Assembly (NCBI GenBank): GCA_946615905.1 | Contig: CAMOIE010000006.1 | Span: 62,001-126,000, forward strand | DNA length: 64,000 bases | Source of the DNA: an uncultured Treponema sp. | Lineage (GTDB): Bacteria; Spirochaetota; Spirochaetia; Treponematales; Treponemataceae | Direction: 5' to 3' | Shown: positions 47,895 to 62,317 of the stretch, piece after piece | How positions within the stretch are numbered: the stretch's first letter is position 1 | Layout of the letters: each line of letters begins with the position of its first letter | Position numbers and translations under genes: made by a program | Notes under the pieces: model-generated | The model's database searches: none | Told to the model about the DNA's origin: nothing | What the model saw: only the letters and a program-made list of their open reading frames with translations

Positions 47895-49442
47895 TTATTT
47901 TATTTTTCTTGTGAAGGCATCTTTGAATCCGAACGCTTTGAAACGCTCAAGGACTGTTCCGTACTCGTCTCCTGAAAGGGGGCCGACCATAACCTGCTTT
48001 GCGGAGCCGGACTTGTTTGGAACGACTGCCATCGGATATTTTTCCGCATAGCGGCTTAAAACCTGGGAGATATTCTCATCGTCCTTAAGGCTTGCAATCT
48101 GCACATAATAGGAGGATCTTTTAAGGTCATCGAGAGAGGCGACCGTAAAATCCTCGACCTTGAAAGAGCCGCTTGAAGGCAGGGCGACGATTTCCTTTGC
48201 TGGGGCTGCCGTTGTTACGACAGGAGCTTCCACGACAGTTTTTGCGGCGACAACCTCTTCCTCAACTACGGGAGAGTCTTCCGCAGGAGGATTTGGCTGG
48301 GCGGGTATCAAAGAAATAGCCTGATAGCCATCTGATGAAGCTGGCTCCTCTTCTGCAATGGCAGGAGTTTCCTCAACAAAGGCCTCGTGTTCCTCCGTCA
48401 CCTCAGCGGGAATTTCTGCGACAAAGGAGTCAGACTCAGCTTCTGCCGGAGTTTTTGCAAGGGGGACCAAGTTTTCCGTAGATGGAATCTCTACAATTTT
48501 TTCCTCAGAAGATTCCTCTGCAAACGGGGCTTGGGTAACTTCGATTTCAGACTCCTCAGCGGCGGGGAATTCCTCAGCGGAACTTTCAGCAATTGCAGGA
48601 CTTTCTTCTACCAAAGGCTCGGCAGGCCCTGGAGCTTCGATGGCAACTTCTTCGCCTGGCTGGGGAATTTCAACGATTTTTTCGAGGACTGGCTCTTCTT
48701 CCAGACTTTCATCAATGGGAGCCTTTGCAAGAGCCTCTGTATTTTCCTCAGCGGGAATATTCATAAGGGCTTGCTCTACCTCTGGTTCTTTTTTATCATT
48801 TTCGGTTGAGACAACTGATGATGCGACAGCGAGTCCAACAGGTTCAGGCTCTGTTTCCGCAGCGGCAAGCGCCCCCTCATCAATTGAAAAATCTTCCGCC
48901 GGATTTTGACTAGGTGCGTCAATGGCAACCTCTTCAGCAGGATTTTCCGCAAGAGCGGCTCTTTCTTCTACAGGAGCTTCCTCGGCAGGGCTTTCCACTG
49001 GGGCAGGCTCAGCTTTTGCTAATGAAGACTCTGAAGGAATGGCGGAAATATCAGAAATCTCGTCCTGTTCCCCGCCCTCAGCGACAATCGCAGTTCCAGA
49101 AACTGACTCGTCAAGAGAACCTGTACGCTTTGTGATTTTTACCTGGGCATTTGTGTCTTTTGTGATGTCAAGCTGGTCAGCGGCTTCAGGCGAAAGGAGA
49201 ATTGCAACACCTTCGCTTGCATCAATGGAGCCAAGAACTAAAACAGAAACTGTCGTACCTGTCGCAGGATTAGTAACAGCAACTGAATCACCTGGCAAAT
49301 ATCCAACAGTTCTGGCAAAAAGCCCCTTGGGCATATCACCCGTTTCGGCAACCAAGGCTCTTCCGTCCAGAGAAGGACGTGCAGCTGCAAAGACTGTGGC
49401 AGCTGTCACAAGAGTCGCAAAAAAAACGAAAAATTTCTTCAT
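47895..49442 (-). CDS. Exported protein with RlpA-like N-terminal and SPOR C-terminal domains
   Basis: A 515-aa periplasmic protein. A signal peptide (MKKFFVFFATLVTAATVFAAARP) leads into a ~95-residue region resembling the double-psi barrel of RlpA (VGYLPGDSVAVTNPATGTTVSVLVLG ... LSPEAADQLDI), but the DRGPF catalytic segment of RlpA is not seen. The middle ~300 residues are a low-complexity Glu/Ala/Pro/Ser linker. The last ~75 residues form a SPOR domain (SYYVQIASLKDDENISQVL ... QVMVGPLS) that binds denuded peptidoglycan at division sites. I use the ATG at 49442, five bases after GGGGG. A structural septal role is more likely than enzyme activity. Confidence 0.8.
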   Translation of the reverse strand: MKKFFVFFATLVTAATVFAAARPSLDGRALVAETGDMPKGLFARTVGYLPGDSVAVTNPATGTTVSVLVLGSIDASEGVAILLSPEAADQLDITKDTNAQVKITKRTGSLDESVSGTAIVAEGGEQDEISDISAIPSESSLAKAEPAPVESPAEEAPVEERAALAENPAEEVAIDAPSQNPAEDFSIDEGALAAAETEPEPVGLAVASSVVSTENDKKEPEVEQALMNIPAEENTEALAKAPIDESLEEEPVLEKIVEIPQPGEEVAIEAPGPAEPLVEESPAIAESSAEEFPAAEESEIEVTQAPFAEESSEEKIVEIPSTENLVPLAKTPAEAESDSFVAEIPAEVTEEHEAFVEETPAIAEEEPASSDGYQAISLIPAQPNPPAEDSPVVEEEVVAAKTVVEAPVVTTAAPAKEIVALPSSGSFKVEDFTVASLDDLKRSSYYVQIASLKDDENISQVLSRYAEKYPMAVVPNKSGSAKQVMVGPLSGDEYGTVLERFKAFGFKDAFTRKIK

Positions 49443-49463
49443 ATATTCCCCCAACCGCATATT

Positions 49464-49979
49464 TTACTTTTGTTTTTTTAATCCGGCATTCAACTGACTG
49501 GCAACAAGACTTGCGAATTCAGAAATGCCACTCTCGTTATTGTTATTTTGGTCAACCTTTGGCGGTTTTCCGGAACCGGAAGAAATCTCCTTCCCAGAAG
49601 CCACCGAATAGTTAGTCCAAGACACCTTTTTGATATTTGAAAGAAGCAAGGCCTCAGGGTTCGTAAGGTCTTCCGCTTCGTTAAAATCAACTTGGACCCG
49701 GCAAAGGATGTCCATTCCCCCGTCAGAATTTTCCTGCAAGGACCGGTGCAACTCATCGGCGTCTTTTTTATCTGAAGAGCTGATGTAAACCGGAGAATTT
49801 GTGACTATATGACCGTTTTCAAAAAAGAAATCGATTATTGACTGCTCAAAAAGATAAGAGGCCGCGCAGACTTTTTCTGGCTGAGCCGGATTATTTTGGA
49901 TTATCTGGATTGCGATAGAGCCTGCGAAGACCCCGTGGATGGCAAAAAAAGAAGCCAAAAGGCAGATGATTTTTTTCAT
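49464..49979 (-). CDS. Small exported protein of unknown function
   Basis: A 171-aa protein with a clear signal peptide (MKKIICLLASFFAIHGVFAGS). The mature part contains ASYLFEQSIIDFFFENGHIVTNSPVY, which recalls nucleotide- or lipoprotein-like periplasmic folds only vaguely, and a Ser/Gly/Asn-rich stretch (SSGSGKPPK ... NNNNES) before the C-terminus. No family is recognised. It lies 21 bp upstream of the SPOR protein gene and is probably co-transcribed with it, so an envelope role is plausible. Confidence 0.7.
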   Translation of the reverse strand: MKKIICLLASFFAIHGVFAGSIAIQIIQNNPAQPEKVCAASYLFEQSIIDFFFENGHIVTNSPVYISSSDKKDADELHRSLQENSDGGMDILCRVQVDFNEAEDLTNPEALLLSNIKKVSWTNYSVASGKEISSGSGKPPKVDQNNNNESGISEFASLVASQLNAGLKKQK

Positions 49980-52476: not shown

Positions 52477-52537
52477 GTCTTTTCTTTTAGCTTTCATGAT
52501 GTTATAATTTTACGGATAAAAAAGGGGATAATTGAAA

Positions 52538-54073
52538 ATGATGCAAAGGGCAGAGTCACGTCTTTACATCATCGGTGCCGGTTTCGCCGGTCAGATGATT
52601 GCGGAGGACTTGAAGCGCAAAAAGATTTTCGGAACAGTCGCGGCATTTTTAGACGATGACAAAAAGCTGATCGGCACGGAAATCGATGGCGTTCCTGTGT
52701 TGGGACCGATTGAGGCGGCGGCAAAACTCATCCGCTGCGATGCGACAGACGAGGCCATAATAGCGATTCCGTCAGCCTCCCCGCAAAAAATCCGTGAAAT
52801 CTATTCTATATTGAAGTCAACAGGTTTCCTCCATATAAGGATTCTTCCGTCTGTAAGCCAGATTGTCGAGGGAAAGGCTCATTTTGTCCAAACCCGCGAA
52901 ATCGACCCCTTAGACATCCTTGGCCGCGCCCCTGTGATTATTCAGCTGACAGAAAGCCTGAAATATCTTCGCGGAAAGAGGGTTTTGATTACCGGCGCGG
53001 GAGGCTCCATTGGAAGCGAGCTTGCCCGCCAGCTGCTTTCAGGCGGGGCTGAGAGGCTCTACCTTTTCGGCCATGGGGAAAACTCAATAGTAAGCATTTA
53101 CCGGGAGCTGAACGTCCTGCAAAACGAGGGAGTCGGCGAAAAGGCTTCCGTTGTTCCGATTATCGGGGACATGAAGGACCGGGCCTATATGGACTATATC
53201 ATAAGGCAGACAAGGGCTGACGTGATTTTCCACTGCGCGGCCTACAAGCACGTTCCAATGATGGAAGAAAATCCTGTGGCGGCGATTGAGAACAACGTCT
53301 TCGGCACAAAAAATCTTTTGGACGCATGTCTCAAGCACGGAGTCCAGCGTTTTGTGCTGATTTCCACGGACAAGGCAGTAAATCCTGTCTCGGTCTACGG
53401 GGCAAGCAAAATGCTCTCTGAAAAACTTGTCTTGCAGGCGGCGAAAAAAGCCTCAGCCGGGCAGGACTTTATGTTCGTCAGGTTCGGGAACGTCCTAGGC
53501 TCCAGAGGCTCCATTCTGCCGATTTTCATGAACCAGATTAAAAACGGCGGTCCTGTCACGGTGACTGACCCGAAAATGGAGAGATTTTTCATGACAATTC
53601 CCGAGGCCTGCTCACTGGTCTTGAAGACTGGCGGAGTCGGCGAGAACGGACGCTCATACCTTTTGGACATGGGAGAGCCGGTGAAAATCATCGATTTGGC
53701 TGAGCAGATTATAAAATTCTCAGGTCTGGAGCCAGGAAAGGACATACAGATTAAGATAATCGGTCCGCGAGAAGGTGAGCGGCTTGTGGAGCCGTTATGG
53801 CTTGAGGAGGAAAATCCCCAGCCGACGAAATATGAGAAAATCATGCAGCTCAAAAATCTTGAGATGGACGATGAGATTTTGGACGACCTGCTTGAAAAAC
53901 TCTCTCCGGTCTGCCTGCCACCGAAAAACGATGAGGACGCTGACCTCTACCGCGACAAAAAGGAGCTTATCTCGCTTTTACGAGACGCAGTTCCCTCTCT
54001 CGATGCCTTTTACGAGGAGACAAAGGACGTGAGAATCGACCGCGAGACAAACCTTACGAAAGTCACCCTGTAA
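52538..54073 (+). CDS. NDP-sugar 4,6-dehydratase/epimerase of the CapD/FlaA1 family, soluble form
   Basis: Acts on a UDP-N-acetylhexosamine to open the path to diamino- or deoxy-sugars (511 aa). Residues 8–130 form a first Rossmann-like domain (IIGAGFAG); the SDR domain has TGAGGSIG (152–159), AAYKHVPMMEENPVAAIENNVFGTKN and STDKAVNP. Unlike PglF or WbpM there are no N-terminal TM helices. The catalytic triad reads Ser276, Tyr287, Lys291: the Tyr sits where inverting dehydratases of this family usually have Met. Start: ATG at 52538; a TTG six bases earlier is closer to the GGGG ribosome site. First gene of a five-gene operon. Confidence 0.88.
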   Translation: MMQRAESRLYIIGAGFAGQMIAEDLKRKKIFGTVAAFLDDDKKLIGTEIDGVPVLGPIEAAAKLIRCDATDEAIIAIPSASPQKIREIYSILKSTGFLHIRILPSVSQIVEGKAHFVQTREIDPLDILGRAPVIIQLTESLKYLRGKRVLITGAGGSIGSELARQLLSGGAERLYLFGHGENSIVSIYRELNVLQNEGVGEKASVVPIIGDMKDRAYMDYIIRQTRADVIFHCAAYKHVPMMEENPVAAIENNVFGTKNLLDACLKHGVQRFVLISTDKAVNPVSVYGASKMLSEKLVLQAAKKASAGQDFMFVRFGNVLGSRGSILPIFMNQIKNGGPVTVTDPKMERFFMTIPEACSLVLKTGGVGENGRSYLLDMGEPVKIIDLAEQIIKFSGLEPGKDIQIKIIGPREGERLVEPLWLEEENPQPTKYEKIMQLKNLEMDDEILDDLLEKLSPVCLPPKNDEDADLYRDKKELISLLRDAVPSLDAFYEETKDVRIDRETNLTKVTL

Positions 54074-54104: not shown

Positions 54105-55316
54105 ATGGCAGAAAATAAAGAGGAAAAATCAGAAAATAAAATTCTAGTTCCATTTTTCAAACCCCAGATTGGCGAGGAAGAAAAAAAGGCCGTCATGGAA
54201 GTCATGTCATCGGGCTGGCTTACGACCGGCAAAGTGACCAAGGCTTTTGAGGATGAATTCGCAGCCTTCACCGGTGCAAGATTCGCGCTTGCCGTGAACT
54301 CAAACACTTCCGGCATGATTTTGGCGATGGAAGCCTGCGGGGTCAAGGCGGGAAAGGCCGTAATCACGACCCCATACACATTCGTCTCCACCGCAGCCTG
54401 CGCCCGACATTTGGGGGCTGACGTTTATTTTGCCGACATCGAAAAGGATTCATACTCAATCGACCCGGATAAAATCGAGGAAATCCTTAAAAATAACTCG
54501 GAAAAAATCGCGGCGATTGTCCCGGTCCATATAGCAGGAAACGTCTGCGATATGGAGAAAATCTGCGCCCTTGCAAAAAAATATTCGACTCCGAATCACA
54601 AAATCTACGTGATTGAGGATGCGGCCCACTCTTTTCCGGCAAGGACGAAATCAGGAATGGCGGGAACCTTGGGGGATGCGGGAGTCTTCTCTTTTTATGC
54701 GACCAAAACGATTACGACCGGAGAAGGCGGCATGGTCACAACAGGCGATGAGTCTCTTGCCAAACGGATGGGCGTAATGCGCCTGCACGGAATGAACAGG
54801 TCAGCCTGGGACCGCTACACTTCCCCGAAGGCCTCATGGGAATACGACATAATCGACTGCGGTTTCAAGTGCAACCTGCCGGACGTATTGAGCGCAATCG
54901 GCCGGCAGCAGCTGAAAAAGGCGGACGGATTTTTAAAAAGCCGGACAAAAACAGCACAGCGGTATAACGAGGCATTCAAGGACTGCGACTTTCTGACTCT
55001 TCCGCCAAATCAGGATGGAAACGCATGGCACCTTTACTTGATCCGAATAAATCCTGAAAAACTCGACTGCTCACGCGATGAGTTCGCGAAGGAACTGCAG
55101 AATCGTGGACTTGGAATCTCCATGCATTTTATCGCGCTATTTAAATTCTCCTACTGGAAAAAACTCTATCCAGACTTCACGGCAGAGAATTACCCCAACG
55201 CAGCCGACCACACAGAGAGAACAATCACCCTCCCCTTCTATCCAGGAATGACAAGAGATGAAGAGGAGACCGTAATCAGAATCGTCAAGGAATGCGGAGC
55301 CGCCCACCATGTCTGA
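54105..55316 (+). CDS. DegT/DnrJ/EryC1/StrS-family sugar aminotransferase
   Basis: PLP enzyme that aminates a 4-keto-sugar nucleotide, the natural next step after the upstream dehydratase (403 aa). Conserved parts are FFKPQIGEEEKKAVMEVMSSGWLTTG, EDAAHSF (Asp172, PLP ring) and FSFYATKTITTGEGGM with Lys201 as the Schiff-base residue. It resembles PglE/ArnB-type enzymes that make UDP-4-amino sugars. Its last 8 nt overlap the next gene, which means tight translational coupling to an apparently unrelated oxidoreductase. Confidence 0.93.
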   Translation: MAENKEEKSENKILVPFFKPQIGEEEKKAVMEVMSSGWLTTGKVTKAFEDEFAAFTGARFALAVNSNTSGMILAMEACGVKAGKAVITTPYTFVSTAACARHLGADVYFADIEKDSYSIDPDKIEEILKNNSEKIAAIVPVHIAGNVCDMEKICALAKKYSTPNHKIYVIEDAAHSFPARTKSGMAGTLGDAGVFSFYATKTITTGEGGMVTTGDESLAKRMGVMRLHGMNRSAWDRYTSPKASWEYDIIDCGFKCNLPDVLSAIGRQQLKKADGFLKSRTKTAQRYNEAFKDCDFLTLPPNQDGNAWHLYLIRINPEKLDCSRDEFAKELQNRGLGISMHFIALFKFSYWKKLYPDFTAENYPNAADHTERTITLPFYPGMTRDEEETVIRIVKECGAAHHV

Positions 55317-57720
55317 AAAAGAGAGCAAAACGGAAGTAATGAGCGAAGAAAAAGAGTCCCCAAAGAAAAAACGGACTGTGGCAAAAGAAAGAGCAACAAA
55401 AAGCCGCAAGAGTCCGCAAAATTCAAGACTCCTTTTCTCAAATGAATTTTATTCAGACCTGACTTCCGATGAGACTCTTTACTGCGCCCTAGTGAGAAAT
55501 TCCTTCTCAAAGGGAATCATCACGGACGTTACGATTCCAGATTTGCCTGAGGGCTACCACTTTTACTCGACCGCTGACATTCCGGGCAAAAATCAATTTG
55601 ACACTCTTGGAACCAAAATTCCGGTCTTTTATTCTGGAAAAATCCGCTACAAGGGAGAGCCGCTTGGGATTCTTGCAGGCCCTGACTATGAGGAAGTCCA
55701 GGAACTTGCGAAAAAGGCGAAAATCACACTAGACGGGACAGAGCTTTTATCCGCGGCAAAAAAATTCGAGGATAGCCCCTCCCTTCACATAGAGGGCTTT
55801 AAAAGAGAAGAGAATCAGAGTCCATCCGAAAATCAAGAAAGGGTGGCAAATCCTGACACAAGCAAAGTCCTGCGTTTTGAGCGAAAAATTGAGTCGGGAC
55901 TTAGTGGCGAAGACTTTGAAAAATGCTTTGACCTGGCCACAATCGAAGGAAAATGGAAGAGCGGCCTTCATATCCACTGCGCAAGCGAAACAGCAGGAGC
56001 CTTTTCTTTTGTAAAGAACGGCATTCTCCACGTCATGACACCCAGCCGCTGGATAAAAAATCTGCGGACAGCCCTTTCAAGCGTGACAAAATTTCCGCCT
56101 GAAAAAATCGTAATCACAAGGACAAAAACATCCGCCGCAAAACCAAATCTTTGGAAAAGTACGGCTCTCGCCTGTCAGGCGGCGGTCGCGGCGGTAAATT
56201 CAGGAAAAGCCGTAAAACTCGTCTTGACCCGCGAGGAAGAAGAGACTTTTATAGAAAATCCCCTTTCCGTTGAATTTTTTTATAAAACAGCTGTCTGGCC
56301 TGACGGAAGAATCGAGGCCGCAGATGTGGACATCAGTCTGGATGTAGGGGCGGAAAATCCTTTCGCGGAGGAAATCATAAACAGACTCTGCATTTCCTGC
56401 CTCGGCCCTTACGCGATTCCCAACGTGCGGATAAGGGCAAGGGCGTATTCGTCTGACTCCGTGCCGTCATCGCTAAAAATCGAGGCCGCAGACTATCAGG
56501 CCTCCTACGCAATTGAAAACCAGATGGAAAAAATCGCTGACTCAATCGGAGTCGACCCCCTTTCCTTGAGGGTAACGAACGCGGGAACAAAAACGACATT
56601 GAGCCGGCAAAAAGTAAAATTCGCCCCGTCACACGTTTTTGAGACCCTCAACGCCGTCTGCGTAAAATCCGACTTTTTGCGGAAATACACGACTTACCGC
56701 ATGAACAAGGAAAACGAGTACCTCCGCGACAACATCTCCCCCTTTGCCCCGCCCCTGAGGGGAATTTCCCTTGTCTCGGCAGCAGCCGGCTCTTTTTTCT
56801 ACGGAACGATTTTTTCTATAAAAGACGTTTTTATGGAAGTCGCCACACAAAAAGACGGCAGTTTGAAAATCAACAGTATCCCCCCGTCACCAGTGATTCA
56901 AAAAATCTGGACAAAAATCGCCGCATCAATTCTTGGGCTGGACGAGGGCAAAATCACATTCGCCTCGGAATTTGCGGAAGACCCGGAAGGGCCTGAGAAT
57001 ATTTCCTCGAACGTGGCCCTGAACACAATGCTACTGAAAAAATGCTGCGAAACCTTAAAACGCAAAAAGGTCGCTTCCGGTCAATGCGTCAGCGTGAAAA
57101 AAGGACTTTCCCCGGCGCAGAAAAAACTCTGGAACAAGGAAGATTTTTCAGGCACCCCCTTTTACTCAACGTCGTTCGCCTCTATGGTCTTAGAGCTTTC
57201 CTACAATCCGGCGACTTACCACGAGACGGTCAACGGGATTTGGATTGTGGTTGACGGGGGCCGGCTTCTTGACAGCAAAACAGCCGAGTCTTCGATAAAA
57301 AAATCAATCCGTCAGGCTCTGTCATCCCTGGTGGAAAATTCCGATGTACCATGCAAAAACATCACGGTTCAGTTCGTCCAGTCTGAAGACGAACCTAAGC
57401 AAATCGGGGAAATAGCCCTGTCACTGCTTCCTGCTGCCTACACAGCTGCCCTCTCCCAGGCTTTGGCCTCGACAGTCTCAACCCTGCCGCTTAAAAACGA
57501 CTCCCTGTTTAAAATCAGCGAGGAAGAGGCGGAGCGAGAAAAGGTCGAGTTCGAGGAGCAGATTCTTCTGGAAAAAGTTAAGGATGAGAAAAAGGACGAA
57601 AAAGATGCTTCTCCTGACGAAGACAAAAAGTCCGAAGCCCTGTCTCAAAACTCCACTCCGGAGGAAGACGAAATCACGGACATCATTGAAGAAATCCAGA
57701 ATTCTGGAGGCGAAATTTGA
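55309..57720 (+). CDS. Xanthine-dehydrogenase-like large subunit with lost molybdopterin motifs
   Basis: An 803-aa protein with the overall layout of molybdenum hydroxylase large subunits (XdhA/CoxL): KIRYKGEPLGILAG, HIHCASETAGAF, VKLVLTREEEETF, LGPYAIPNVRIRA, a matching ASILGLDEGKIT block and a C-terminal IGEIALSLLPAAYTAAL with Glu701 in the position of the catalytic Glu. The cofactor motifs are absent: GGGFGGK is replaced by RTKTSAAKPN (271–280), RGFG by SSLKIEAADYQ (387–397) and GQG-T by PPSPVIQKIWT. The N-terminus (~1–40) is strongly basic and the last ~65 residues strongly acidic, both extra to the family. It probably does not bind molybdopterin in the known way. Confidence 0.82.
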   Translation: MSEKESKTEVMSEEKESPKKKRTVAKERATKSRKSPQNSRLLFSNEFYSDLTSDETLYCALVRNSFSKGIITDVTIPDLPEGYHFYSTADIPGKNQFDTLGTKIPVFYSGKIRYKGEPLGILAGPDYEEVQELAKKAKITLDGTELLSAAKKFEDSPSLHIEGFKREENQSPSENQERVANPDTSKVLRFERKIESGLSGEDFEKCFDLATIEGKWKSGLHIHCASETAGAFSFVKNGILHVMTPSRWIKNLRTALSSVTKFPPEKIVITRTKTSAAKPNLWKSTALACQAAVAAVNSGKAVKLVLTREEEETFIENPLSVEFFYKTAVWPDGRIEAADVDISLDVGAENPFAEEIINRLCISCLGPYAIPNVRIRARAYSSDSVPSSLKIEAADYQASYAIENQMEKIADSIGVDPLSLRVTNAGTKTTLSRQKVKFAPSHVFETLNAVCVKSDFLRKYTTYRMNKENEYLRDNISPFAPPLRGISLVSAAAGSFFYGTIFSIKDVFMEVATQKDGSLKINSIPPSPVIQKIWTKIAASILGLDEGKITFASEFAEDPEGPENISSNVALNTMLLKKCCETLKRKKVASGQCVSVKKGLSPAQKKLWNKEDFSGTPFYSTSFASMVLELSYNPATYHETVNGIWIVVDGGRLLDSKTAESSIKKSIRQALSSLVENSDVPCKNITVQFVQSEDEPKQIGEIALSLLPAAYTAALSQALASTVSTLPLKNDSLFKISEEEAEREKVEFEEQILLEKVKDEKKDEKDASPDEDKKSEALSQNSTPEEDEITDIIEEIQNSGGEI

Positions 57721-58193
57721 AAATTCCCCTGACTTTGAACGGTGAAAAAATCATTTTGGACTGCAAGGCCGATGAGCCGCTGATTGAAATCTTGCGCAAG
57801 CGGGGACTTTTTTCCGTAAAAAACGGCTGCGGTAAGGGAATTTGTGGCTCCTGCACTGTTTTATTGGACGGAAAAGCGGTTTCCTCCTGCAAAATCCCGG
57901 TCGGAATAGTCCGGGACTCAAAGATTGAGACATTGGAGCATTTCGAAAAAAATCCAGCATACGATGACATAATCAGTGGCTTTAACAAGGCCGGAATCAG
58001 CCTCTGCGGTTTCTGCAACGCCGCGAGGATTTTGCTGACCCACGATTTAATCAGCCACGTCTACAGACCGACAAAAGACCAGCTAGACCACGTTGCCGCA
58101 TCAGTAAAATGCTCCTGCACAGAAAAAGGAATCTTTGAGAACGGAATTTTGTATGCAGTGGCAAACAAACATTCGCGCGAAGGGAGAAAATAA
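57717..58193 (+). CDS. 2Fe-2S subunit of the xanthine-dehydrogenase-like complex
   Basis: Small iron–sulfur subunit (158 aa). The plant-type cluster site has Cys38, Cys43, Cys46 and Cys58 (NGCGKGICGSCTVLLDGKAVSSC pattern) and the proximal cluster Cys97, Cys100, Cys132 and Cys134, so all eight ligands are kept. The segment after CGFC reads NAAR in place of TPGM, where a nearby Gln/Gly normally touches the pterin. The start is TTG at 57717, six bases after GGAGG, overlapping the large-subunit stop. It should carry electrons even if the large subunit lacks molybdenum. Confidence 0.9.
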   Translation: MKIPLTLNGEKIILDCKADEPLIEILRKRGLFSVKNGCGKGICGSCTVLLDGKAVSSCKIPVGIVRDSKIETLEHFEKNPAYDDIISGFNKAGISLCGFCNAARILLTHDLISHVYRPTKDQLDHVAASVKCSCTEKGIFENGILYAVANKHSREGRK

Positions 58194-58984
58194 TGTCGTC
58201 AATACTGTATGCGAAAAATCTTCAGGATGTCTTCTACCAGATTAAGACAGTCCAAGGTCTGCAAATCACGGGCGGCTGCACGAGCGTAAACCCTCTGCCT
58301 CCAAAATTCTTGTCAATCCGAAATGTCGCGGAACTGAAAGCAATCGACAAGCACGAGCGGTATTTTGACTTCGGACCGGCAGTAACGATTGACGAATTAG
58401 AGGCAATCGGGGAAAAACTCCCGCCGGTTCTCTCTCAGGCCGTAAAATCAGTGGGAAACGCCCGCATAAAAAACATGGGGACTTTGGGCGGAAACATCTG
58501 CCAGCCGGAAGTAAAAGGAACCCTCTATGCCCCCCTTTTAGCTCTCGACGCAAAACTTGAATACAAAAATGAATTTGAAAGTGTTTTTATTCCGCTGACA
58601 AAAGTGGAAACAGCTCCAAAAGATTCAGTTCTGACAAAAATCAGAGTTCCGATTCAAAACTGGGAAGTCGAAGACTTCAAGAGGGTCGGCCCATACAGGA
58701 CCCTCACGGAGGATTCCGCCTCATTCGCTTTTTTGGCTGACACGCAGTCGGGAATTCTTACGACAATCAGAATTGCATTCGCAGGCTCTGTCTTTTTCAG
58801 AAGCCTGGAAGCGGAAAATGCCCTGCTCGGTTCTAGACTGCCATTGCATTCCGTCACGATTTTGCAAATTTTGGAAAAGGCGGCAGACCAGTTTGACCTA
58901 GCGGCAAAAGACAGGGAGCTGAATCCTGTCCTACGGAACCGATTTTTGAACCTGCTGAAATACTCCCTTGAGCAGTTAACTTAA
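58193..58984 (+). CDS. FAD-binding subunit of the xanthine-dehydrogenase-like complex
   Basis: Medium subunit (263 aa) of the CoxM/XdhB family. The first FAD loop is QITGGCTSVNPLP (family AGGTDL), the second is KNMGTLGGNICQPEVKG, and the CO-dehydrogenase flavoprotein C-terminal domain follows. The FAD loops are degenerate at a few positions but the GTLGGN core is intact. It overlaps the previous stop (TAATG) and closes the five-gene operon. Confidence 0.88.
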   Translation: MSSILYAKNLQDVFYQIKTVQGLQITGGCTSVNPLPPKFLSIRNVAELKAIDKHERYFDFGPAVTIDELEAIGEKLPPVLSQAVKSVGNARIKNMGTLGGNICQPEVKGTLYAPLLALDAKLEYKNEFESVFIPLTKVETAPKDSVLTKIRVPIQNWEVEDFKRVGPYRTLTEDSASFAFLADTQSGILTTIRIAFAGSVFFRSLEAENALLGSRLPLHSVTILQILEKAADQFDLAAKDRELNPVLRNRFLNLLKYSLEQLT

Positions 58985-59022: not shown

Positions 59023-59062
59023 AAAAGACAGTTTAAACAAATTGTTAGAAAAGCTGTCTTTT
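59023..59062 (+). promoter_or_regulatory. Inverted repeat abutting the ribosome site of the ABC operon
   Basis: AAAAGACAG (59023–59031) and CTGTCTTTT (59054–59062) form a perfect 9-bp inverted repeat with a 22-nt interval. The GGAGG ribosome site begins at the next base (59063). It could be an operator or an mRNA hairpin controlling translation. Confidence 0.55.
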
Positions 59063-59072
59063 GGAGGTCTTT

Positions 59073-60395
59073 ATGAAAAAACTACTTGCAGCCGGCTCGA
59101 TTTTGCTGACTCTCGGAATTTTGGCTGGATGTTCAAAAAAAGAAACTGTTCAACTTTCGCCTGTCGACAAAATCATTGCCGAAGCTCAGGGGATGAGCCT
59201 TGAGGAATTGGCGAAAAAGGCCATCGAGGAATCAAAAGGAGCGACTTTCTACGGAGTCGGAAACTCTTCCCGCGGAAAATCAGCCCTTCCCCTCTTCATC
59301 GACTACTTGAAGTCAATTGACCCCAGCTACACGCTGAACTTTGAATGGCAGCAGCCTAAAAACAACAAGATTTTCGACCAGCTGACCGCAGACGCCCAGA
59401 AAGAGACAGGCACTTTCGCCATGACCCTTATCCAGGACGGAAACCAGATTCAGACAAAAATGGTCGACACAAATATCCTGAAACGCTTCGTCCCAAAAGA
59501 ATGGGCTGAGGCAAACGGAACAACAGCCGAAAAATTCACAGAATTCCTTCCATTGCAGACTTTGAACAAGGTTTTCATGTTCAACTCAACTGGAAGCAAA
59601 AAATACGCTAACTGCTGGGATTTCGTCGCGGAAGGCCAGCACTCACTCTACATGGACATCGACTCAGAGCTTGTCGGAAAGAACTTCCTCTACATGCTCA
59701 CAAAAGACGAATACGCCAACTGGCTCAAGGATGCCTATGACAAGCTCGATGCGGGAACAAAAGCCTACGTTGACAAATTTGTGAACGCAGTCGCAAATGA
59801 CGCAAAAGACTTCGGTCTCGGAGCAAACGGAAAATACGCCCTCGCATGGATTAAAATGTGGGTTGAGTCATACTCAGCGCAGACTGACGACGGCCCGATC
59901 TGCAACACACTCGTCTCAAAGTCAGCGAAAGACCAGTCAGGACTTCTCGTATACTCAAAGCTCCGCTCTGTAAAGGAGTCATCAGAGGTCTCTGTCAACA
60001 ACATCAAGGTCGCGGCCTATGAGGACGGCTATCAGGGAATCGGCGGCTACGGCTACAAGCACTACCTCTTTGTCACAAAGAACTCCCCTCTTCCGTGGAC
60101 ATCATGCGCCTTTATCGCTTACATGACATGTACAAAAGAAGGATTCCAGGCTTGGGGTAAGGACATGGGCGGCTACTCAGGAAACCCGAACGTCGCAAAG
60201 GCGACAGAGGAAGCCTACCACCACTCAACAGGCGGAAACAAAGACGGCGTTACAGTATTCCCGGCAAAGAACGACCGTGGCTACGACTGGTGGACGACAA
60301 GCGGCAAACTGGTTCTCGAAGACCCTGCTTACTGCGCGTCAGTCGCATTCACAGTCGGCTCTTGGATTGAGCTTTTGACAAAATACAGCAACTAA
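59073..60395 (+). CDS. ABC transporter substrate-binding lipoprotein (Fe3+/polyamine-type)
   Basis: Extracellular solute-binding protein of the family 1/6 group (440 aa). The signal ends LGILAGC, a normal lipobox. The mature part begins after a charged stretch and contains ATFYGVGNSSRGKSALPLFIDYLK and YAALAWIKMW-like segments; aromatic and Asp residues are frequent, but no iron-binding Tyr pair can be named from sequence. The partner permease with two fused domains and the PotA/FbpC-type ATPase suggest uptake of Fe3+, polyamine, thiamine or phosphonate. Start at 59073, five bases after GGAGG. Confidence 0.85.
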   Translation: MKKLLAAGSILLTLGILAGCSKKETVQLSPVDKIIAEAQGMSLEELAKKAIEESKGATFYGVGNSSRGKSALPLFIDYLKSIDPSYTLNFEWQQPKNNKIFDQLTADAQKETGTFAMTLIQDGNQIQTKMVDTNILKRFVPKEWAEANGTTAEKFTEFLPLQTLNKVFMFNSTGSKKYANCWDFVAEGQHSLYMDIDSELVGKNFLYMLTKDEYANWLKDAYDKLDAGTKAYVDKFVNAVANDAKDFGLGANGKYALAWIKMWVESYSAQTDDGPICNTLVSKSAKDQSGLLVYSKLRSVKESSEVSVNNIKVAAYEDGYQGIGGYGYKHYLFVTKNSPLPWTSCAFIAYMTCTKEGFQAWGKDMGGYSGNPNVAKATEEAYHHSTGGNKDGVTVFPAKNDRGYDWWTTSGKLVLEDPAYCASVAFTVGSWIELLTKYSN

Positions 60396-60404
60396 TAATT
60401 GACT

Positions 60405-60470
60405 AATTTGGGCGTTCCGCCGTTCGTCTTGCGAGCGGCGGCGCGCTTTCCGTGGTTCCGCAGCCACTTT
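60405..60470. repeat. GC-rich repeat element inside the ABC operon (first copy)
   Basis: Between binding-protein and permease genes. It begins GGGCGTTCC (60410–60418), then GCCGTTCG/CGAGCGGC-like dyad, then GCTTTCCGTGGTTC (60445–60458), identical to 31640–31653. No T-tract. The permease ribosome site follows directly. Confidence 0.6.
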
Positions 60471-60490
60471 TACGAGGAGAGGAGCTTTTT

Positions 60491-62317
60491 ATGAGTTCAA
60501 ATGAAAAATCTTTGAGCAAAAGTCTCATTTTTAAATACAAACTGAAAACATTCTTTTCAAAACCGCAAAACATAATCCTGCTCGCATTTGGAATTGTGCT
60601 GACATTTTCCACGGTAGCTCCGATTATCGCAATCGTCCGGGACACGTTGGAAATTCACCCCGGTACAATCGACCAGCATTTGACCGGCCGGGTCGCCGGA
60701 TTCACAGTCGTAAACTACATAGACCTTTTCACAAGCAAGCTTGCCATGACAAACCTCTGGAAGCCGCTTATAAACACCCTTGCGCTCTCAATCTCCACCT
60801 GTTTTATCTCAATCGTATACGGTGGATTTTTCGCCTTTTTGGTGACGCGAACCAATCTTCCTTTCAAAAAATATCTTTCGTCAATATTCATATTTCCATA
60901 TATCATGCCCCAGTGGACACTCGCCGTCGTCTGGCAGAACATGTTCAACTCCAACGCGGTCTGCGGCACTGCCGACGGACTTTTAGCCTCCCTCTTTGGA
61001 ATCAACATGCCCCACTGGTGGTGCATGGGAATTTTCCCGTCAGCGGTAGTCCTCGGCCTTCACTACGCCCCTTTCGCCTACATTCTGATTGGCGGAATCT
61101 TCAAGAACATGGACGCTAACCTTGAGGAGGCCGCCACGATTCTGGACACGCCAAAATACAAAATCATGCTCAGAATCACAGTCCCGATGATAAAGCCCGC
61201 GATTCTCTCGACGATTCTTCTGGTCTTCGGCTCGGCCATGGGTTCTTATCCGGTTCCTCATTACTTGAATTTAACGACCCTCTCCACAAAATATATTTCG
61301 ATGAACGCAAAGTACACAGGCGAGGCCTCTGTCCTTGCAATCATCATGATGCTTTTCGGAGTCGCGATTTTGGGTCTGAACCAAATGTCCCTCAAGTCCC
61401 GCAAAAACTACACGACCGTCACCGGAAAGTCAGGTCAGCTGAGCAAAATCAACCTTGGAAAAATCGGCAAGTACATTTTCGGAGTGGCCTTTATCCTGCT
61501 CACCTTCTTCACGTCAATCTGGCCGATTATCCTCTTCGCCCTTGAGACCTTCCTACCCAACCCCGGCGACTATTCATTCTTGTATACTCTCGACCCGCAG
61601 AATCTGACATCAAAATGGTGGATGACGGCGGAAAACCTCACGGAAAACGGCCTCTACGGTCAGAAGGGAATTTTCTTCAACAACACAATCTGGCACGCAT
61701 TCCGTGGAACCCTCCTGCTCTCATTCGCCTGCGCCCTGATTGCAGGAACAATCGGAACTCTGATCGGTTATGCGGTCTCCAAAAACAGGCGGTCAAAGTG
61801 GGCGAACTACGTCAACAACGTGGCCTTCCTTCCATATCTAATGCCGTCTTTGGCTGTCGGTGCCGCCTTCTTCATACTCTTCTCGAACAAGCACATCAAT
61901 CTGTTCAACACCTACTGGCTTTTGATTATCGCGGGTGTGGTAAAATACATCCCCTTCGCAAGCCGTGCCTCCCTGAACTCAATGCTGCAGATTTCGGGAG
62001 AACTTGAGGAAGCCGCCGTAATCCAGAACATTCCCTGGTTCAAGCGGATGATAAAAATCATTATCCCGATTCAAAAGTCGTCCATAATCTCAGGCTACAC
62101 CCTGCCCTTTATGACCTGCCTCCGAGAACTTTCGCTCTTCTTGCTTTTGTGTACCCAGGGCTTCATTCTCTCAACGACGCTGGACTACTTCGACGAGATG
62201 GGTCTGTACGCATTCTCAAGCGCAATCAACCTGATTTTGATTGTGACGATTTTGTTCTTCAACACACTGGTAAATAAAGTGACCGGGGCCAGCCTCGACT
62301 CTGGAATCGGAAAATAA
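60491..62317 (+). CDS. ABC transporter permease with two fused transmembrane domains
   Basis: A 608-aa inner-membrane protein carrying two copies of the binding-protein-dependent permease domain, as in FbpB/ThiP. EAA loops that contact the ATPase are ANLEEAATILDTPKYKIML in the first half and GELEEAAVIQNIPWFKRMI in the second. About twelve hydrophobic helices are visible. The ATG at 60491 is used because AGGAG lies eight bases upstream; the longer reading extends into the repeat element. It should pair with the preceding lipoprotein and following ATPase. Confidence 0.92.
   Translation: MSSNEKSLSKSLIFKYKLKTFFSKPQNIILLAFGIVLTFSTVAPIIAIVRDTLEIHPGTIDQHLTGRVAGFTVVNYIDLFTSKLAMTNLWKPLINTLALSISTCFISIVYGGFFAFLVTRTNLPFKKYLSSIFIFPYIMPQWTLAVVWQNMFNSNAVCGTADGLLASLFGINMPHWWCMGIFPSAVVLGLHYAPFAYILIGGIFKNMDANLEEAATILDTPKYKIMLRITVPMIKPAILSTILLVFGSAMGSYPVPHYLNLTTLSTKYISMNAKYTGEASVLAIIMMLFGVAILGLNQMSLKSRKNYTTVTGKSGQLSKINLGKIGKYIFGVAFILLTFFTSIWPIILFALETFLPNPGDYSFLYTLDPQNLTSKWWMTAENLTENGLYGQKGIFFNNTIWHAFRGTLLLSFACALIAGTIGTLIGYAVSKNRRSKWANYVNNVAFLPYLMPSLAVGAAFFILFSNKHINLFNTYWLLIIAGVVKYIPFASRASLNSMLQISGELEEAAVIQNIPWFKRMIKIIIPIQKSSIISGYTLPFMTCLRELSLFLLLCTQGFILSTTLDYFDEMGLYAFSSAINLILIVTILFFNTLVNKVTGASLDSGIGK

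Follow-up and report, generated by a model that had tools for sequence, protein, structure and literature searches.

The window analyzed here, a stretch of 64,000 nucleotides from the genome of an uncultured Treponema sp., encodes a large subunit (LSU), a 2Fe-2S (FeS) subunit and a FAD subunit that probably belong to an XO-family lineage which lost the molybdenum cofactor (Moco) once, at the base of its class, and which has since been maintained, also in T. pallidum, as a flavo-iron-sulfur complex that is free of Moco, carries tryptophan in a remodelled site and serves a new function. The loss of Moco as such, which an earlier note on this DNA had proposed, is strongly supported: the motifs of the pterin-binding shell are gone throughout the clade, the host genome is without MoaC, MoeA_N and the C-terminal domain of MoaA, and purifying selection acts on the LSU.

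The three genes stand in tandem on the plus strand behind a CapD-like and a DegT-like gene (Table 1), and the reading frames overlap by 8 bases between DegT and LSU, by 4 between LSU and FeS, where the TTG start lies over the LSU stop, and by 1 between FeS and FAD. The order CapD-DegT-LSU-FeS-FAD, preceded by a NusG/RfaH-like antiterminator, recurs in most examined families of the class, often flanked by ligA or secA on one side and by queA-ruvB-ruvA or dnaE-yggT-recG on the other (flanking genes were named by reading representative sequences); the antiterminator is absent from the window locus. On the 3' side of the operon, at 59061-62317, lies a probable binding-protein-dependent transporter, composed of a lipoprotein-like protein of 444 aa with no significant Pfam match followed by a two-domain permease-like protein; it is absent from this place in most relatives. 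On the minus strand, a conserved gene pair with no assigned function (47898-49460 and 49467-49979; clusters 5 and 7) runs divergently to the CapD operon at roughly half of the compared loci.

Table 1. Genes of the operon and residues of the LSU discussed in the text, in window coordinates.
Feature	Position	Strand	Remark
CapD-like soluble nucleotide-sugar 4,6-dehydratase, STDKAVNPVSVYGASK	52532..54073	+	operon neighbour, separable module
DegT/PseC-like aminotransferase, PLP lysine present, FYATKTITTGEGG	54105..55316	+	operon neighbour
XO-family large subunit (LSU), 803 aa	55309..57720	+	pterin-binding motifs lost
LSU Trp248 (TQW)	56050..56052	+	W in 91% of 117 degenerate relatives, Cys in 11/11 intact sisters
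LSU residues 275-282, GGGFGGKE-H place	56131..56154	+	glycine loop gone, family-typical Trp282
LSU residues 391-394 (IEAA), RGFG place	56479..56490	+	Arg in 0/91 degenerate relatives
LSU residues 525-529 (PPSPV), GQG loop place	56881..56895	+	alignment to intact homologues
LSU Glu701, catalytic-Glu place	57409..57411	+	Glu in only 40/91 degenerate relatives
2Fe-2S (FeS) subunit, 158 aa, TTG start	57717..58193	+	eight cluster cysteines present, NAA for TPG
FAD subunit, 263 aa	58193..58984	+	flavin motifs TGGCT and GTLGGN

Membership of the XO family could be judged from profile matches and from a structural model. In Pfam, the LSU matched MoCoBD_1 with 109.6 bits, and MoCoBD_2 (23.3 bits) and Ald_Xan_dh_C (18.4 bits) below their cut-offs; the FeS subunit matched Fer2, with Fer2_2 just below the cut-off, and the FAD subunit matched FAD_binding_5 with 75.2 bits. 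The NCBIfam matches of all three subunits lie far under every equivalog cut-off, and the solved chain closest to the LSU by sequence is that of nicotinate dehydrogenase (3hrd_A). As predicted by AlphaFold2 from 57 sequences (pLDDT 87, pTM 0.85; low confidence in residues 1-30, approximately 156-182 and parts of the tail), the XO-family fold of the LSU is intact: Foldseek and VIA-align matched the model to the XO family across its whole body, and the comparison with aldehyde oxidoreductase 1dgj gave a Z of 38.6 over 635 residues (rmsd 3.2, 18% identity). The profile scores and the fold match rule out an annotation artefact or a chance similarity. The basic head and acidic tail that had been described for the LSU are borne out by residue counts, with 13 K/R versus 7 D/E in residues 1-40 and 26 D/E versus 10 K/R in residues 735-803; both extensions are partly of low confidence in the model and mostly absent in distant relatives.

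In XO-family enzymes glycine-rich loops hold the pterin. Aligned with intact XO-family proteins from other spirochaetes, the LSU of the window shows SAAKPN-L (275-281) in place of GGGFGGK, IEAA in place of RGFG and PPSPV in place of GQG, and the FeS subunit reads NAA where TPG is expected; the loss of these four motifs had been claimed in the earlier note. The RGFG arginine is kept in none of the 91 degenerate relatives, and this arginine, the glycine pair and the GQG glutamine are jointly absent in 84 of them, whereas 17 intact proteins mostly have them. A residue comparison of 117 degenerate LSUs with 11 intact sisters, in the numbering of sister L125, showed that R350, C206, E240 (the position of bovine E802), G475-Q476-G477, G610/Q611 and G666/G669 are down to 0-6% in the degenerate set, and that G614 and P667, also invariant in the sisters, are nearly gone from it; the residues behaving in this way make up the glycine-rich loops and their surroundings. 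Other positions mark the degenerate LSUs and are absent in the sisters, namely W248 (91%), E355, W534 and P593, with C580 nearly so, and W282 is found in 83 of 91 degenerate LSUs. The glutamate at the catalytic position, which had been taken as kept, is indeed present in the window as Glu701; with Glu in 40 of 91 relatives it is not a trait of the family, and its presence does not by itself indicate a kept catalytic site.

Could the complex nevertheless still be a molybdoenzyme, one that binds Moco in an unusual manner and obtains it from an external source or by some unrecognized pathway? The overall LSU fold is intact in the model, the window has Glu701, and there are genomes with intact XO proteins and no MoaC, all of which would be compatible with such an enzyme. 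We nevertheless regard it as highly improbable, given that the glycine-rich pterin loops, the RGFG arginine and the GQG glutamine have been lost together and that bulky or charged residues stand in their place.

The distribution of the Moco pathway was surveyed at several levels. A check for Moco genes in the window genome (G000; 2.96 Mb in 47 contigs, 96% complete), as the earlier note had recommended, found MoaC, MoeA_N and the MoaA C-terminal domain all to be absent, and the sole MoCoBD_1 protein of this genome is the window LSU. An LSU homologue is encoded in 192 of the 195 genomes of the window's family, including 124 of the 124 of good quality, and MoCoBD_1 is found in 190 of the 195; MoaC occurs in 22 (13 of the 124 good ones) and MoeA_N in nine (5 of the 124), and across the wider class 99 of 297 genomes have MoaC. 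Some genomes with intact-motif XO proteins have neither MoaC nor MoaA-C (G417, G453, G455, G430 and G043), so that absence of MoaC does not prove absence of Moco; it was dropped as a stand-alone argument, and the evidence from the motifs therefore outweighs that from the missing pathway. Together with the loci L179 and L180, these genomes represent a second case of orphan molybdoproteins, with intact motifs and no detectable MoaC or MoaA-C. Furthermore, MoaC and a strong, intact-type MoCoBD_1 match are found without any MoeA_N match in G033, G050, G057, G064, G071, G121, G140, G175 and G183, and the genomes that do have MoeA_N are without the strong MoCoBD_1 matches.

In a quick maximum-likelihood tree all intact sequences fall on one side of a branch with an SH-aLRT of 99. 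Given the diversity of XO-family types in the intact set, the degenerate sequences are most readily taken as a single clade that goes back to one loss, and the tree is consistent with a single origin of the motif loss; loci sampled outside the class (L217-L222) carry intact motifs. A scan of 84,980 species genomes returned 79 loci, every one of them from Spirochaetota by title, a result bounded by the two short patterns with which the scan was made. We favor the view, with some reserve, that the trio was inherited vertically from an enzyme of the xanthine-dehydrogenase type, and that Moco was abandoned near the base of the class Spirochaetia. Its genes are not decaying: pairwise dN/dS of the LSU is 0.05-0.11 in 14 of 15 close pairs and 0.22 in the remaining one, with similar values for the FeS and FAD subunits, and these low ratios together with the open frames rule out pseudogenes. 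Given that the Moco site was lost while the genes were clearly kept, the complex must do something else. Among the distant degenerate LSUs, those at L104, L147, L150 and L155 are preceded by a 270-aa gene (cluster 29), which occupies the place of CapD/DegT.

The remaining redox centers are present in the window as had been described: the FeS subunit has all eight Fe-S cysteines (C38, C43, C46, C58, C97, C100, C132 and C134) and the FAD subunit has GTLGGN. By alignment, 138 of about 155 FeS rows retain all four N-terminal cluster cysteines together with three or more of the C-terminal ones, and a Treponema subset (g1) has CC for the C-x-C of cluster I. Judged from the alignments, no other feature has lasted as well as the FAD motif, which is kept almost everywhere, and its GG was found in 144 of 158 rows and in all examined members of genus g20. 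In this genus, to which the probable T. pallidum belongs, the cluster II residues are wholly or partly lost (loci L165, L075, L233, L236 and L237), and the CxxC...CxC of cluster I and the FAD motifs are kept; the four N-terminal cysteine places read HNSY in G020 (L165) and YNSC in G033 (L075), and G043, G064 and G071 have at most three of the four cysteines. Cluster II cysteines are also wholly or partly lost in g10 and g9 and in part in G010 and G029, and nearly all cluster cysteines are lost in G220 and at L147, where the genes remain and are open. In known XO structures cluster II is the bridge between FAD and cluster I, and some members of g20 therefore probably have an interrupted chain. 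The proposal that selection acts on electron transfer is thus only partly supported and depends on the lineage: it fits the window and most relatives, which keep the eight cysteines, but fits less well g20, with its whole or partial loss of cluster II residues, and G220 and L147, with their loss of nearly all cysteines.

This stepwise loss invites another reading, that of a pseudo-enzyme which persists in a scaffolding or binding role, with redox centers that are relics and disappear one by one. Both the order of the losses (the Moco site everywhere, then cluster II in g20, g10 and g9, then nearly all cysteines in G220 and L147) and the presence of open genes despite the lost cofactor sites would suit it. 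We consider it rather unlikely, as a scaffold needs neither cluster cysteines, which most of the approximately 155 FeS subunits have kept long after the loss of the Moco motifs, nor the FAD GG retained in those 144 of 158 rows. Under the preferred reading of a Moco-free flavo-iron-sulfur complex, the subunits would assemble without Moco, FAD would take electrons from NAD(P)H, or the reaction would run in the reverse direction, and electrons would pass via cluster II and then cluster I, at the interface with the large subunit; the role of the Mo site may have gone to a partner protein or to a substrate within the reshaped pocket. Some lineages appear to have trimmed the chain further, probably to flavin alone or to no redox activity.

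The association with DegT is a feature of the degenerate proteins. DegT lies directly upstream of 55 of 64 degenerate named LSUs at loci with enough DNA, versus 0 of 12 intact ones, and of 26 of 45 LSUs in a second set that was oversampled for flagellin-less genomes. This linkage, and the 8-base overlap of DegT with the LSU in the window, raise the question of whether the trio serves CapD and DegT as redox partner in a nucleotide-sugar pathway and supplies electrons for an amino-sugar step, in the way that E3 supplies E1 during ascarylose synthesis. Such a role seems to us improbable. In the flagellin-less f12 and f15-g38 the trio persists in its degenerate form at the ancestral place with no CapD/DegT, as seen in the examined f12 genomes, where this place is mostly the ancestral one, and in G230 of f15; CapD occurs in G206 and G225, which have no full LSU or trio; in G033 and G043 CapD is far from the LSU; and DegT has the PLP lysine, which is missing from E1-type dehydratases, with K201 present in 93% or more of 78 DegT sequences. 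Because each occurs without the other, CapD-DegT and the trio are separable modules, and an obligate partnership was ruled out; E1/E3-like sugar deoxygenation was ruled out by the PLP lysine.

The distribution of CapD itself follows that of flagellin. With an orthologue threshold of at least 430 bits, CapD was found in 33 of 39 flagellin-bearing and 0 of 20 flagellin-less genomes among 59 sampled Spirochaetia (Fisher p 8e-11, which ignores kinship, the 20 flagellin-less genomes being three lineages: f12, f13 and one f15 genus). In T. denticola the flagellins carry a 450.2-Da glycan which is required for filament assembly (PMC9481697). The soluble CapD orthologue is a candidate enzyme for initiating the flagellin glycan of spirochaetes, a role for CapD/DegT that we put forward as a side hypothesis. 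Glycosylation of flagellin by the trio itself was ruled out, as the trio is still present in f12 and f15-g38, which have no flagellin, and only CapD tracks flagellin.

A genome of 1,139,633 bp in our dataset (G020), which we take to be that of T. pallidum, has the order CapD-DegT-LSU-FeS-FAD. That similar genes lie beside capD-like genes in T. pallidum had been stated in the earlier note, and the statement proved correct, both from G020 and from the prediction of TPASS_0079 and TPASS_0081 as xanthine dehydrogenase (PMC4403809); among the papers searched, nothing beyond this one was found on the T. pallidum genes. TPASS_0079-0081 probably constitute the operon orthologous to that of the window, from which they differ by the loss of the cluster II cysteines as well.

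Hundreds of organisms have orphan molybdoproteins of the XO or DMSOR family and no complete Moco pathway; orphan XO-family proteins are common, and the question of whether Mo-independent forms exist has been asked, with no sequence feature found that would mark them (PMC6147048). For one group of orphan molybdoproteins we can now name sequence features: the loss of all three pterin motifs, the clade-typical tryptophans and a conserved gene order. The annotation of a T. pallidum “xanthine dehydrogenase” is thereby turned into a testable statement, namely that no molybdenum is involved, in an organism whose genome is so reduced that every complex it has kept is informative. Its lineages also form a natural series of steps in the loss of redox cofactors from a single complex.

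With the members of the XO family (XdhABC, 3hrd, quinoline 2-oxidoreductase 1t3q and 1dgj/1sij) the trio shares the fold and the division into large, FeS and FAD subunits, and, in the window, the eight Fe-S cysteines and the FAD motifs; unlike them, it has no GGGFGGK, RGFG, GQG or TPG and no Glu at the E802 place, and most of its host genomes in the window's family are without a Moco pathway. The nearest XO-family sequences among those sampled form an intact-motif sister clade in Spirochaetota (L125, L178, L179, L180 and L217-L222), which has SDFxRKYxxY-like and GEPxGxLVGPD stretches in common with the degenerate LSUs, but whose pterin motifs are intact and which is never found beside CapD/DegT in the loci examined. 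In the E1/E3 deoxysugar system, which pairs a DegT-type dehydratase with a 2Fe-2S reductase, the dehydratase has His for the PLP lysine, whereas the DegT of this operon keeps Lys. An analogy of working may be drawn with NuoG, the Mo-independent homologue of the DMSO reductase family (PMC6147048), to which the trio would be the XO-family parallel: in both cases a molybdoenzyme scaffold would have been kept for electron transfer after the loss of Moco, but NuoG has the DMSO-reductase fold and works within respiratory complex I, whereas the trio matches the XO family by sequence and by fold.
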